From positions 1-64,000 of the forward strand of contig CAISEZ010000071.1 in assembly GCA_903884535.1 (NCBI GenBank): a stretch of 64,000 nucleotides of DNA. Direction: 5' to 3'. The stretch's first letter is position 1. Every line of letters starts with the position of its first letter. Both the position numbers and the translations under genes were made by a program. This document shows positions 3,864 through 39,446 of the stretch, one piece after another. This stretch comes from an uncultured Verrucomicrobia subdivision 3 bacterium. Its GTDB lineage: Bacteria > Verrucomicrobiota > Verrucomicrobiia > Limisphaerales > UBA11358. The notes under the pieces are model-generated. The model did no database searches. It was not told the origin of the DNA and saw only the letters and a list, made by a program, of their open reading frames with translations.

Positions 3864-4750
3864 GCCGCCTCCAGTTGTTTTTCCGTGACCCGGCTCCAGA
3901 TGTCTTTGGGCATGGTTCCCAATTTTTCCGCCCGCAACAGCGTCACGAAATGTTCATCGGCCACCAGCCGCCGCAACGCCGCCACTAAAAACAATACTTT
4001 TTCTTCGCAGAATCGTGCCTTCTTGACCATCAACCGCTGCTTCTGGCTTTCCCGGCGATAGGCATTTACCAGACTGTCGGCGCTCGTGGCCGGCTGTTTG
4101 GAACTGTGCGGCCCGTTGCCGCGCTGCCGGCCAATCAACCGCCGCCGGTCCATCACGCGCCGGATCATCCGCAGTGCATTCTGTGTCAGTTGCTTTTTTT
4201 CGCACGCCTTCAATAGCTCGCGCTGCATTTCAATCCCTTCCGTGCGCGCAATCTCCACGGCCACGCCGACGGGAATCCGCCCGTTCAAGGCCGCATCCAA
4301 AAGCCGTGTTTCGCCCGACTTTTTGAGCGTGAGCAGGTCATGGATACTGGTCGGGTCCATGTCAATGCGGGCGCTGATTTGTTTCAGAGTTAATCCCTCC
4401 TTTTTCAAACGCTCGATTTCTGTCAGCATTTCAATCGGCGCGGGATTGCGCCGTGCCATGTTCTCCGCCAGGCTGCACAACAGCCGGTCTTCCTTGCTGA
4501 TCCGCACCACCACCGCTGGAATTTCGGTATAACCCAGCACCCGGAACGCTTCGATGCGTCCTTGTCCGCAAACCAGGTCATACGTCGGTCCTTCGCCCTC
4601 GTCGGCCTCCCGCTCGCTGACTTTGATCGGCTTTTTTAATCCTTGATTCTTGATGCTTTGCACAATCATCGCGAACCTCTTTGCATCCCGGTGCCGGTGA
4701 TTCAGGATGCGGATTTGGTCGAGCGGAATCATTTTTATTTCATCGTTCAT
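3860..4750 (-). CDS. RepB/ParB-like partition family protein (ParB N-terminal plus RepB C-terminal-like region)
   Basis: 296 aa; 'MIPLDQIRILNHRHRDAKRFAMIVQSIKNQGLKKPIKV...YDLVCGQGRIEAFRVLGYTEIPAVVV...LAENMARRNPAPIEMLTEIERLKKEGLTLKQISARI' matches ParB/RepB architecture with a downstream HTH. Confidence 0.8.
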   Translation of the reverse strand: MNDEIKMIPLDQIRILNHRHRDAKRFAMIVQSIKNQGLKKPIKVSEREADEGEGPTYDLVCGQGRIEAFRVLGYTEIPAVVVRISKEDRLLCSLAENMARRNPAPIEMLTEIERLKKEGLTLKQISARIDMDPTSIHDLLTLKKSGETRLLDAALNGRIPVGVAVEIARTEGIEMQRELLKACEKKQLTQNALRMIRRVMDRRRLIGRQRGNGPHSSKQPATSADSLVNAYRRESQKQRLMVKKARFCEEKVLFLVAALRRLVADEHFVTLLRAEKLGTMPKDIWSRVTEKQLEAA

Positions 4751-6293
4751 GGTCGTCCTCCAAATTGATGCGTTCCATCAGGCTGAAAAAATAATCCAGT
4801 GAGTCGCAGCGGTAGGTGTCGAGATAAATGCCATTGGCTTCCGCCACACGCAGGTTTTCCCAAGTCATATCTAGGCCGGGCAGCAAATAGTAATCCTGAA
4901 TGCCGTGGTTGGTGAAATCCATCCGCACGGCAATCGTGATGTCCGGTTTCAATCCTTCATCCAGCCGGATCAACCAGCGCGACGTTCCGGCGGCGGTGGA
5001 AGTGTGCCGGCACAGCACAACGGACACCCGCAGTTCGCCGTTCACCAGCAGCAGGTCCGTTTCGTCGTCTTGGATGGCCGTGCCGCCCTGGGCCATGATT
5101 TGTTTAACCACCGACGCCACGAGGTCCGGTCGCAGTTGGCGCAGCCGCCGGTTTTCCTCGATGAAACTGAAATCTATGCCGGGATCATAGCCGATGAGCT
5201 TGTAGGCATTGATGAGTGACCCGAACCGATGCCCAAAGGCTGCGCTTGACGGCAGCCCTTCCGTCTCATCAATCAGGATGCCCGAAATGCGGCCGTGCTG
5301 TTTGAATAGTTCGCGCAGCTTTTCCAGCATTTCTTCATTCGTCAATTTCTGGCTCCGCGCCAGGATGATTTCTTGTGCCCGTAAAAATATGTCCCGCTCG
5401 ACGATTCCTCGATAAGCCCCTTCCTTGCGAACCCATTTGTCTGGTGGATTGTTGACATGCTTCTTCTTCAGCTTGCACGAGGTGCGGTGATACACGTTGT
5501 TGCCAATGTATTTTTCGTTGATCAGCACTTCATGCACCGTCCCCCGGTTCCATTCCCGTCCAAAGTCAGTCTTGATACCTTGCGCGTTGAGGAGGGCGGC
5601 AATCTCAGTTTCCAATTTTTCTTCGGTGACGAATGCCTGATACATCCAGCGAACGGTTTTGACTTCTTCGTCCGGCCCTGGCTCCAGTATCACGCGGTCA
5701 GTCTGGATGCTTTTGTGTTCACCCATCTTGAGTTCGCCTTTCCGGTTGCCGCCACCGTCAATCAGCACCCGCCGCAGACCGAAACCGGCCGTGCCGCCTT
5801 GCCGGTAGCCCAGCGTCACCAGCCGGCAGGCCCATTGAAAAACTTTCGTGGAAAGCTCGCGGCTATATTCGCCCGCCATCATCCGTTTCACGCCCTTGAT
5901 GATGGTGCTCACCGGCGTGCCGTCGTTCTCGAATTGTTCCGCGCAGTAATGCACGGCTACGCCGGCACGTCGGCAGACAAATTCATAATGCGCGCTTTCA
6001 TCCGCATCCTGAAACCGCCCCCACCGGCTCACGTCATAGACCAGGATGCTGGAATAATCGGCCTTGCCCTCCTCGACATCGCGGATCATTTGCGCCAGCG
6101 AATCCCGGCCCTCGATGTTCAGCCCGCTTTTCCCGTCATCGGAATAATCCTTAACAATCTCCAGCCCGCGCACGTTCGCATACGCGAGAATCACATCCCG
6201 CTGGTTGCTCGTCGAATACTGCTGATGCTCCGTGGACATGCGCACATACAGCGCCGCCCGCTTGGCCCGAAGTTGTTCGTCATCCCGGCTCAT
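4740..6293 (-). CDS. large serine recombinase
   Basis: Start at 6293 (MSRDDEQLRAKRAALYVRMSTEHQQYSTSNQ...). Resolvase motifs 'YVRMS', 'VYDVSRWGRFQDADESAHYEF'; recombinase domain 'GYRQGGTAGFGLRR...LNAQGIKTDFGREWNRGTVHEVLINEKYIGNNVY'. Overlaps the downstream ParB-like gene by 11 nt. Confidence 0.9.
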   Translation of the reverse strand: MSRDDEQLRAKRAALYVRMSTEHQQYSTSNQRDVILAYANVRGLEIVKDYSDDGKSGLNIEGRDSLAQMIRDVEEGKADYSSILVYDVSRWGRFQDADESAHYEFVCRRAGVAVHYCAEQFENDGTPVSTIIKGVKRMMAGEYSRELSTKVFQWACRLVTLGYRQGGTAGFGLRRVLIDGGGNRKGELKMGEHKSIQTDRVILEPGPDEEVKTVRWMYQAFVTEEKLETEIAALLNAQGIKTDFGREWNRGTVHEVLINEKYIGNNVYHRTSCKLKKKHVNNPPDKWVRKEGAYRGIVERDIFLRAQEIILARSQKLTNEEMLEKLRELFKQHGRISGILIDETEGLPSSAAFGHRFGSLINAYKLIGYDPGIDFSFIEENRRLRQLRPDLVASVVKQIMAQGGTAIQDDETDLLLVNGELRVSVVLCRHTSTAAGTSRWLIRLDEGLKPDITIAVRMDFTNHGIQDYYLLPGLDMTWENLRVAEANGIYLDTYRCDSLDYFFSLMERINLEDDHER

Positions 6294-6442
6294 GATTCGC
6301 CATCGGTTGCCACGCTTACGATTTTCAGGCCGCGCTGCCGCGCATACCGGCGGATCACCTTCAGTTGGGCGGCGACAGAATGATCCAGTTGCCGCCCGGA
6401 TTTGCGCCCGTAAGCGGCAGTTCGATGTGTTCGTTTTTTCAT
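6290..6442 (-). CDS. micro-ORF resembling a serine recombinase N-terminus
   Basis: MKKRTHRTAAYGRKSGRQLDHSVAAQLKVIRRYARQRGLKIVSVATDGES aligns with recombinase residues RAALYVRMSTEHQQYSTSNQRDVILAYANVRGLEIVKDYSDDGKSG; ATGA overlap with the recombinase start. Confidence 0.6.
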   Translation of the reverse strand: MKKRTHRTAAYGRKSGRQLDHSVAAQLKVIRRYARQRGLKIVSVATDGES

Positions 6443-6527
6443 GGCTTGATAATTCCACTTATCAGGAATCAAAAACCATGATAACGGCGGCTGACCGTAG
6501 AATCTAACTGGATTTGTAACGCAACCG

Positions 6528-7139: not shown

Positions 7140-7263
7140 GTAGGGCAGATTTTCCAATCTGCCGGTTCACGGAACTTTCCAGTTCCGTGGAGGCGCTCCG
7201 GTTGCGCGAGGAACTGGCGACTGGAAAGTCGCCCGAACCCGCAGGCTGGAAAGCCTGCGCTAC
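7140..7263. repeat. REP/BIME-like multi-hairpin element, copy 1
   Basis: GTAG...CTAC boundaries; hairpins GGCAGATT-TTCC-AATCTGCC, CACGGAACT-TTCC-AGTTCCGTG, GGCGACT-GGAA-AGTCGCC, CGCAGGCT-GGAA-AGCCTGCG. Confidence 0.85.
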
Positions 7264-7456
7264 ACGCGCGGCGGTCTTGGCGGGCGGTCACCACCTAGCC
7301 CAAAGCGGAAACTCCTGGCGGAGGGCCACCAGGTAAAGCGAAAGCGAAAAGCGGTATGCGAAAAGTGAATAAATCTTAGCCGCAATAAAGCACAGAAGGC
7401 GCGGGCGAAAAACTTGAAAGTTGAAAACAGAAAGCGGAAATGAAACCGCCAAGACC

Positions 7457-7481
7457 GGACGGCCCAGCGGTCCGTCCCTAC
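7457..7481. repeat. single REP-like palindrome (inverted, CTAC end)
   Basis: GGACGG...CCGTCC followed by CTAC (reverse complement starts GTAG-GGACGG). Confidence 0.55.
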
Positions 7482-7520
7482 GATGGATGAATCGGCTTAC
7501 GCTGACGGCCACTCCTTGGC

Positions 7521-7644
7521 GTAGGGCAGATTTTCCAATCTGCCGGTTCACGGAACTTTCCAGTTCCGTGGAGGCGCTTGGGTCGCGCGCGGAACTGGCG
7601 GTTGGAAAACCGCCTCAACCGGCAGGCTGGAAAGCCTGCCCTAC
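7521..7644. repeat. REP/BIME-like multi-hairpin element, copy 2
   Basis: Same 124-bp layout as copy 1: GTAGGGCAGATTTTCCAATCTGCC ... GGCGGTT-GGAA-AACCGCC ... GGCAGGCT-GGAA-AGCCTGCC-CTAC. Confidence 0.85.
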
Positions 7645-7751: not shown

Positions 7752-8000
7752 ATGAGTGCGATACTGGAACAAGTGACGGAAGAAATCAGTGAACTTTCTC
7801 CGCAAGACCGCAAGGAACTGCTCGCCCGCCTGATCCGCGAGCTGGAGCCGGCAGAAGATCTTTCCCAAGCTGAAATTGAAGCCGCATGGAATCAGGAAAT
7901 TTCCCGGCGCTTGGAGGAAATTGATTCCGGGAAGGTGAAGCTGGTTCCGGCTGAAGAAGTTTTTGCCAAGATTCAAGCCCGGCTGGATGAAGCCCGTTAA
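7752..8000 (+). CDS. addiction-module antitoxin-like protein (TIGR02574-type)
   Basis: 82 aa 'ISELSPQDRKELLARLIRELEPAED...EAAWNQEISRRLEEIDSGKVKLVPAEEVFAKIQARL', typical of small antitoxins paired with RelE/ParE toxins. Confidence 0.8.
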   Translation: MSAILEQVTEEISELSPQDRKELLARLIRELEPAEDLSQAEIEAAWNQEISRRLEEIDSGKVKLVPAEEVFAKIQARLDEAR

Positions 8001-8292
8001 ATTTCATCCGCATGCCGCATGCGAACTGGTCGAGAATGTTGGTTTTTACAATGGCCGTCTTTCCGGTTTGGGCAATGACTTATTCAAGGCGGTTAAAGTG
8101 GCTGGTCGCCACATTCAAGCCGACCCGGTGCGCCGCCCGCTTCGACGCGACGGCACGCGTCAGGTAAAATTGCCGCGGTTTCCGTATGCTGCGGTTTATC
8201 GGGATCAGCTGGAATGGATTGAAATCGTTGCTGTCGCCCACGGCGCACGCCGTCCGGGTATTGGCGGAATCGCCTGTGAAGCCTACGCATAA
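7987..8292 (+). CDS. RelE/ParE-family toxin
   Basis: MKPVKFHPHAACELVENVGFYNGRLSGLGNDLFKAVKVAGRHIQADP...VKLPRFPYAAVYRDQLEWIEIVAVAHGARRPG; ParE-like fold signature; start overlaps the antitoxin stop. Confidence 0.8.
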   Translation: MKPVKFHPHAACELVENVGFYNGRLSGLGNDLFKAVKVAGRHIQADPVRRPLRRDGTRQVKLPRFPYAAVYRDQLEWIEIVAVAHGARRPGIGGIACEAYA

Positions 8293-39345: not shown

Positions 39346-39446
39346 GTAGCGCAGGCATTCTTGCCTGCGGGTTCACGAAACTTTCCAGTTCCGTATTCTG
39401 GCGGTTGGAAAACCGCCGAACCAGCAGGTTGGAAAAACTGCTCTAC
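39346..39446. repeat. REP/BIME-like multi-hairpin element, copy 3 (variant)
   Basis: GTAG-CGCAGGCA-TTCT-TGCCTGCG ... GGCGGTT-GGAA-AACCGCC ... AGCAGGTT-GGAA-AAACTGCT-CTAC. Confidence 0.8.

Follow-up and report, generated by a model that had tools for sequence, protein, structure and literature searches.

A Limisphaerales family of GTAG-tagged, BIME-like repeats with two-hairpin arms and its probable RAYT partner

Introduction

The closest described systems are the GTAG REP families 1-24, including GTAG-17, GTAG-19, and GTAG-20 of Opitutus terrae, which have a GTAG foot at the hairpin base, form head-to-head dimers and arrays, and are mostly intergenic, with in-frame copies in repair and tRNA-modification genes; heterodimers occur in several of them, and REPtrons, in which a RAYT gene lies between its own REPs, are known (PMC3733652). 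Heterodimers are possibly shielded from SbcCD-type cleavage, and their prevalence "has no obvious explanation" (PMC3733652). In other families, RAYT acts via GTAG on single-stranded REPs (PMC6006769). The REP/BIME repeats of Escherichia coli with their TnpA-REP (4ER8) resemble the elements reported here in having a sequence-related HUH-Tyr RAYT, a GTAG guide, and inverted dimers of unlike types, while the REPINs of Pseudomonas are likewise inverted, RAYT-linked REP doublets. The CGTC-3 dimers of Agrobacterium tumefaciens also combine foot-proximal hairpins with two extra ones at the spacer ends, but have a CGTC foot and no associated RAYT (PMC3733652).

Compared with GTAG families 1-24, each unit of the present elements has two hairpins that share a loop motif; the loops are of TTC type, where most GTAG loops are TY or CMA; the stems vary within one genome; and the distribution is confined to Limisphaerales among the genomes searched. 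E. coli REPs form one long hairpin with a mispaired stem, whereas the stems here are near-perfect, so that strand identity must come from the foot, the linker, and the loop. Most REPIN doublets of Pseudomonas are homodimers, described as pairing into a single long hairpin, unlike the present elements, whose dissimilar arms show local pairing only. The general features (GTAG foot, dimers, REPtrons, heterodimers, intragenic copies, extra spacer hairpins) are all precedented. We found no description of the family, of a two-hairpin GTAG arm, or of the RAYT clade in the open-access literature; the family and the two-hairpin arm look new, while the kind of element is known. To our knowledge, there is little REP literature on this bacterial group. 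We consider it very probable that the elements are BIME-like dimers of a Limisphaerales GTAG-REP family, mobilized by a cognate RAYT and apparently orphaned in the genome studied here.

Results

Four-hairpin elements in the 64-kb window

The window, that is, the whole stretch of DNA analyzed, comprises 64,000 nucleotides (C71:1-64000) of a 3.9-Mb MAG in 165 contigs. It was searched with a covariance model, R1, trained on 24 units of this genome, which therefore fit by construction. As the earlier note had reported together with the loops, the window holds two 124-bp copies of a four-hairpin element (7140-7263 and 7521-7644, 90% mutual identity) and a third of 101 bp (39346-39446). H1 and H2 below denote the foot-proximal and inner hairpins.

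7140..7189 (+): copy 1, left half-unit, type A; R1 E=2.0e-16
7140-7143 (+): GTAG foot of this half-unit
7144-7163 (+): H1, TTCC loop
7164-7167 (+): GGTT
7168-7189 (+): H2, TTCC loop
7214..7263 (-): copy 1, right half-unit, type B; loops GGAA read on +, TTCC read on -; R1 E=4.5e-17
7260-7263 (-): CTAC of this half-unit
7240-7259 (-): H1
7216-7233 (-): H2 core
7521..7570 (+): copy 2, left half-unit, type A; all 50 nt the same as in copy 1; R1 match
7595..7644 (-): copy 2, right half-unit, type B variant GGCGGTT; G-C replaces C-G as H1 base pair; R1 E=1.2e-15
39346..39395 (+): copy 3, left half-unit, type A; H1 CGCAGGCA, loop TTCT; a single mismatch in H2; R1 E=2.2e-14
39398..39446 (-): copy 3, right half-unit, type B; one H1 mismatch; R1 E=4.9e-11

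All hairpins of the 124-bp copies (8/8) are perfectly paired over 7-9 bp, with TTCC loops on the left and GGAA loops on the right. The base changes between copies 1 and 2 in hairpins 3 and 4 had been quoted correctly, and the accompanying claim that pairing is kept holds for all eight hairpins of the long copies. Pairing is incomplete in the 101-bp copy, in which hairpin 2 (ACGAAACT/AGTTCCGT) and hairpin 4 (AGCAGGTT/AAACTGCT) carry one mismatch each. The window contains nine perfect hairpins with stems of 7 bp or more around a TTCC or GGAA loop; 100 dinucleotide shuffles contained 0.05 on average and never more than one, so that chance does not account for them. At the Rfam gathering score, a tRNA was the sole match in the window, with no known RNA family for the elements.

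The surroundings of the first two copies contain the following features.

4740-6458 (-): serine recombinase, on the other side of the repeat pair from the antitoxin gene
7457..7481 (-): hairpin (GTAGGGACGGACCGCTGGGCCGTCC) belonging to a third GTAG family; situated between copies 1 and 2, outside the four-hairpin element
7752-8000 (+): Unstab_antitox-type antitoxin gene (PF09720), beside the repeat pair
7987-8292 (+): small ORF overlapping the antitoxin gene, with the look of a RelE/ParE-type toxin and no Pfam match

The GTAGGGACGGACCGCTGGGCCGTCC hairpin is followed by GGTCTTGG, a motif that also directly precedes GTAG at several four-hairpin copies (L004, L008, L025); a mosaic, or preferred insertion beside older repeats, is possible.

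Unit structure and distribution

Alignment of both arms in GTAG orientation gave a 50-nt unit composed of GTAG, an 8-bp H1 with TTCC loop, GGTT, and a 9-bp H2 with TTCC loop, and the element is a dimer of two such units placed head to head. As in GTAG-tagged REPs, GTAG or a close variant stands at the base of a short palindrome: the foot reads GTAG in 127 of 149 scanned units, the remainder being mostly GTGG, GTCG, GTAA, or GTTG. In the whole genome R1 detected 30 units at E<1e-9, spread over 17 loci, besides eight weaker matches. The copies are thus dispersed and mainly intergenic, with two loci clearly intragenic by heuristic gene calls. Inverted pairs with head-to-head spacers of 1-48 bp and alternating arrays, as in BIMEs, were found as well; one array of about 16 units lies at G009:C81:6778-7874, and identical units recur at several loci in G008 and G041.

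Matches to R1 were present in 38 of 59 genomes of the genus and order (1 to 92 each, about half of the 38 with five or fewer). At E 1e-7, a sample of 245 further genomes from the same phylum gave no match. With a strict element pattern, the matches among named GTDB genomes all fell in MAGs whose labels read "bacterium", Verrucomicrobiia, Verrucomicrobia subdivision 3/Limisphaerales, or unspecified Verrucomicrobia; a single Akkermansia label among them we take as misassigned. The host group is a single verrucomicrobial order known from soil and freshwater. The dispersed copies that the earlier note had asked for were therefore found, both at the 17 loci and in relatives, and its reading of a GTAG-REP/BIME family is supported and was largely right.

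Dimers join unlike arms

Inner hairpins fall into two classes, A (C[CG]GRACT-like) and B (GGCGACT-like), and all 41 typable dimers (41/41) combine an A and a B arm. As these classes were defined post hoc, we also permuted the arms class-free: inner arms within one mismatch of each other occurred in none of 42 dimers, with 13.8 expected and a minimum of three in 10,000 permutations, in a sample where dimers of one array or genome are not independent. Arm-to-arm stem identity was 73% for H1 and 55% for H2, against 94% local pairing. The dimers keep four small hairpins, not one long hairpin.

Stems covary and loops mark subclades

In an alignment of 87 distinct units fitted to the model, 96.9% of cells were paired, and sliding the partner by one column reduced pairing to at most 39%. 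Two-sided changes affected 13 pairs, compared with 9.7+-1.0 in column shuffles, none of 500 of which was as high. The cells changed on both sides numbered 269 vs. 91+-7 in shuffles, a count exceeding that of independent changes since variants are shared between units. The covariation score was 0.467; the two tree-free controls used to judge it, column shuffles and slid partners, gave 0.145+-0.008 and no more than 0.074, respectively. An independent alignment of 24 units gave the same picture; overall, paired cells make up 96-97%. The proposed covariation check thus came out well above both kinds of control. As for the structural selection read into it, the stems do covary, but these data do not tell selection apart from template switching that corrects the palindromes.

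That template switching can correct quasi-palindromes is established. The elements may accordingly be a mobile REP family whose stem covariation arose by such correction, during replication or single-stranded transposition, and not by selection for pairing. This is possible, if rather unlikely, and would suit the variants, which are discrete, almost perfectly palindromic, and linked by few intermediates. On its own, however, correction leaves the constant TTC loop, the GGTT linker, and the strict A/B rule unexplained, and one-sided mismatches persist in some copies.

Another explanation holds that the hairpins act in RNA, as mRNA stabilizers, attenuators, or small RNAs, and that covariation reflects selection on transcripts. 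REPs are able to stabilize mRNA, most copies are bordered by co-directional genes, and GGAA is a GNRA-type loop. G-U pairs are usually tolerated more in transcribed RNA stems, yet here, once the two outermost H2 pairs are excluded, they account for about 0.9% of cells, roughly equal to other mismatches; this near absence of G-T/G-U favors pairing of the stems as DNA hairpins. Furthermore, the TTC(C/T/G) loops of the GTAG strand do not make up a single class of stable RNA tetraloop, both strands are represented in every dimer, some copies lie within coding genes, and the Rfam search was negative for the elements. Action in RNA is in our view very unlikely.

Loop identity had been described as conserved. 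In the core group TTC is nearly invariant and followed by C, T, or G, but the loop is shortened in more distant members (TCC(C) or TCT) and changed in the deepest, basal ones (TGC or GGA types). Loop identity is a property of subclades and is not universal.

In relatives, the elements flank members of one RAYT clade

The best PF01797 (Y1_Tnp) matches in the relatives were rejected as partners; they were mostly IS200-like or of TnpA-DnaA type, with no strong element adjoining. With a RAYT as query, RAYTs sitting between R1 dimers were found. They belong to a monophyletic clade (17 proteins from 14 genomes, support 96/93) with the signature LPHLKREG/LPHVKREG. Kinship with RAYT/TnpA-REP proteins is seen in the motifs HVH and Y-xx-NP and in a match to E. 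coli TnpA-REP 4ER8 (E 2.9e-7); the cut-off of NCBIfam REP_Tyr_transpos (NF047646), applied to sister-clade members only, was exceeded by a sister-clade RAYT. Elements bracket 15 of the 17 clade RAYTs on both sides, mostly less than 150 bp away, an arrangement corresponding to a REPtron. In the sister clade none of 16 was bracketed at comparable strength, some members being near weak R1-like matches. Two clade members, G001_C27 and G023_C35, lack good flanking matches, which counts against the association; G023_C35 has weak, diverged units at both ends.

Of the 14 genomes that have a clade RAYT, 11 contain at least ten copies, vs. 6 of the 45 that lack one (Fisher p 1.1e-5). The six, which include the present genome and G053, with 40 copies and zero Y1 matches, count against the link. 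For copy-rich genomes without a clade RAYT we assume incomplete assembly or loss.

As a separate observation, RAYT-like (Y1/HUH) domains occur in frame within housekeeping proteins of relatives in 17 cases:

ClpB, 3 genomes: L266 1129-4506 (-), L267, L183
PriA, 4 genomes: L246, L331, L332, L335
DnaE, 2 genomes: L269, L256
DinG-like helicase, 1 genome: L247
alanyl-tRNA synthetase (AlaRS), 7 genomes: L330, L333, L334, L336, L337, L338, L339

The HUH motif and the tyrosine are retained in 16 of the 17, linkers encoded by repeats delimit several of the domains (in DnaE, for example, VARASRPC...TGETPVPL), and these RAYTs lie outside the clade linked to TTCC elements. No published description of such in-frame domains was found in the open-access literature.

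Transposases in this genome

No clade RAYT was found in this genome (MAG 93.6% complete), and hence no REPtron; beside its copies, a search for RAYT remnants gave only matches to repeat-encoded peptides and weak noise. The suggestion that a RAYT gene should accompany the repeats is thus borne out in relatives, but not in this genome. MAG assembly easily loses repeat-bracketed genes, so absence here is not proven. The copies are apparently orphaned, or the RAYT gene is unassembled; of the two, we tentatively infer loss.

The sole Y1 gene found is an intact IS200-like tnpA on C130 (150 aa, NF033573). It is bordered by other GTAG hairpins, of the GTAG-CCCACGG and CCCACAG types, and, unlike a resident IS200/IS605 element with its MITEs, shares no ends with the four-hairpin elements; unrelated hairpins flank TnpA. 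The GTAG-CCCACGG/CCCACAG/CCCATAG family around this single tnpA maps to 1274-1302, 1403-1431, and 1980-2008 of L028 (G000:C130), and GTAG-CCCACGG-like hairpins also occur near a tnpA in G015 (L168). That this IS200/IS605-like TnpA (~150 aa) mobilizes the copies as non-autonomous MITEs is the least likely of the explanations weighed. An intact gene and a decayed element ~2 kb off (C130:17303-17410) speak for it; against it, the gene has those other hairpins at its flanks, and none of the IS200-like and 310-aa TnpA-DnaA-type Y1 loci inspected in relatives has strong flanking elements, whereas the RAYT clade does.

Insertions and target sites

Precedents exist for REPs lying in frame within genes for repair and tRNA modification (PMC3733652). 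In this genome, in-frame copies were found in an OGG-type glycosylase gene (C70) and a pseudouridine synthase/methyltransferase gene (C141), both with reading frames open across the element. A third apparent intragenic case (L011) was discarded as probably due to a wrong gene start. The pseudouridine synthase/methyltransferase gene is insert-free in about 20 relatives, with flanks joining cleanly; G031 has an element at the same linker, and in further relatives this linker or its vicinity is occupied by inserts of unrelated kinds. The glycosylase linker is more variable between species, making the empty site less sharp. In a comparison with the near relative G059 (92-95% identical), synteny was lost at the element and no clean empty site was seen. 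No sharp target motif precedes GTAG, where the bases weakly favor GAT (T at -1, A at -2, G at -3); this counts against the reading preferred below.

The same linkers also contain insert-like peptides that differ between species (e.g., ENLECGGTPPLFHWETCLPVPKRGHVRALQ, APSPRPSPPVGERGKT) in the pseudouridine synthase/methyltransferase (L300-L329) and the OGG-type glycosylase (L270-L299). Possibly they are hot spots for several REP families.

Discussion

The reading that we prefer, a GTAG-REP family mobilized by its own RAYT, would work as follows. Units of the form GTAG-H1-GGTT-H2, one A and one B, are joined head to head, which gives either DNA strand a complete GTAG unit of its own. When the DNA becomes single-stranded, e.g., on the lagging-strand template, small independent hairpins would form. 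The cognate RAYT (TnpA-REP; an HUH-tyrosine nuclease of the Y1 family) would recognize the GTAG foot, the conserved H1 base (GCAG), and perhaps also the pyrimidine loop; it would then cleave the strand and insert the dimer at another location, with no target duplication. Judging from the bracketed genes and protein motifs, it is probably the clade RAYT that cleaves and mobilizes these elements.

Stem sequences would be free to drift as long as they stay palindromic. In a perfect palindrome the two strands are identical in sequence, leaving the foot, the linker, and the TTC loop as the only strand-specific marks, which would explain why these remain constant; the loop may thus serve as a strand label. 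More tentatively, and with considerable doubt, we propose that the RAYT lineage reads foot, linker, and loop rather than stem, that the loop marks the substrate strand, that H2 is a second docking site, and that obligatory A/B pairing prevents one long hairpin cleavable by SbcCD-type nucleases.

The strict A/B rule offers a handle on the prevalence of REP heterodimers. Stem sequences differ inside a single genome, but pairing, foot, linker, and loop are constant, which makes the family a natural experiment on RAYT recognition.
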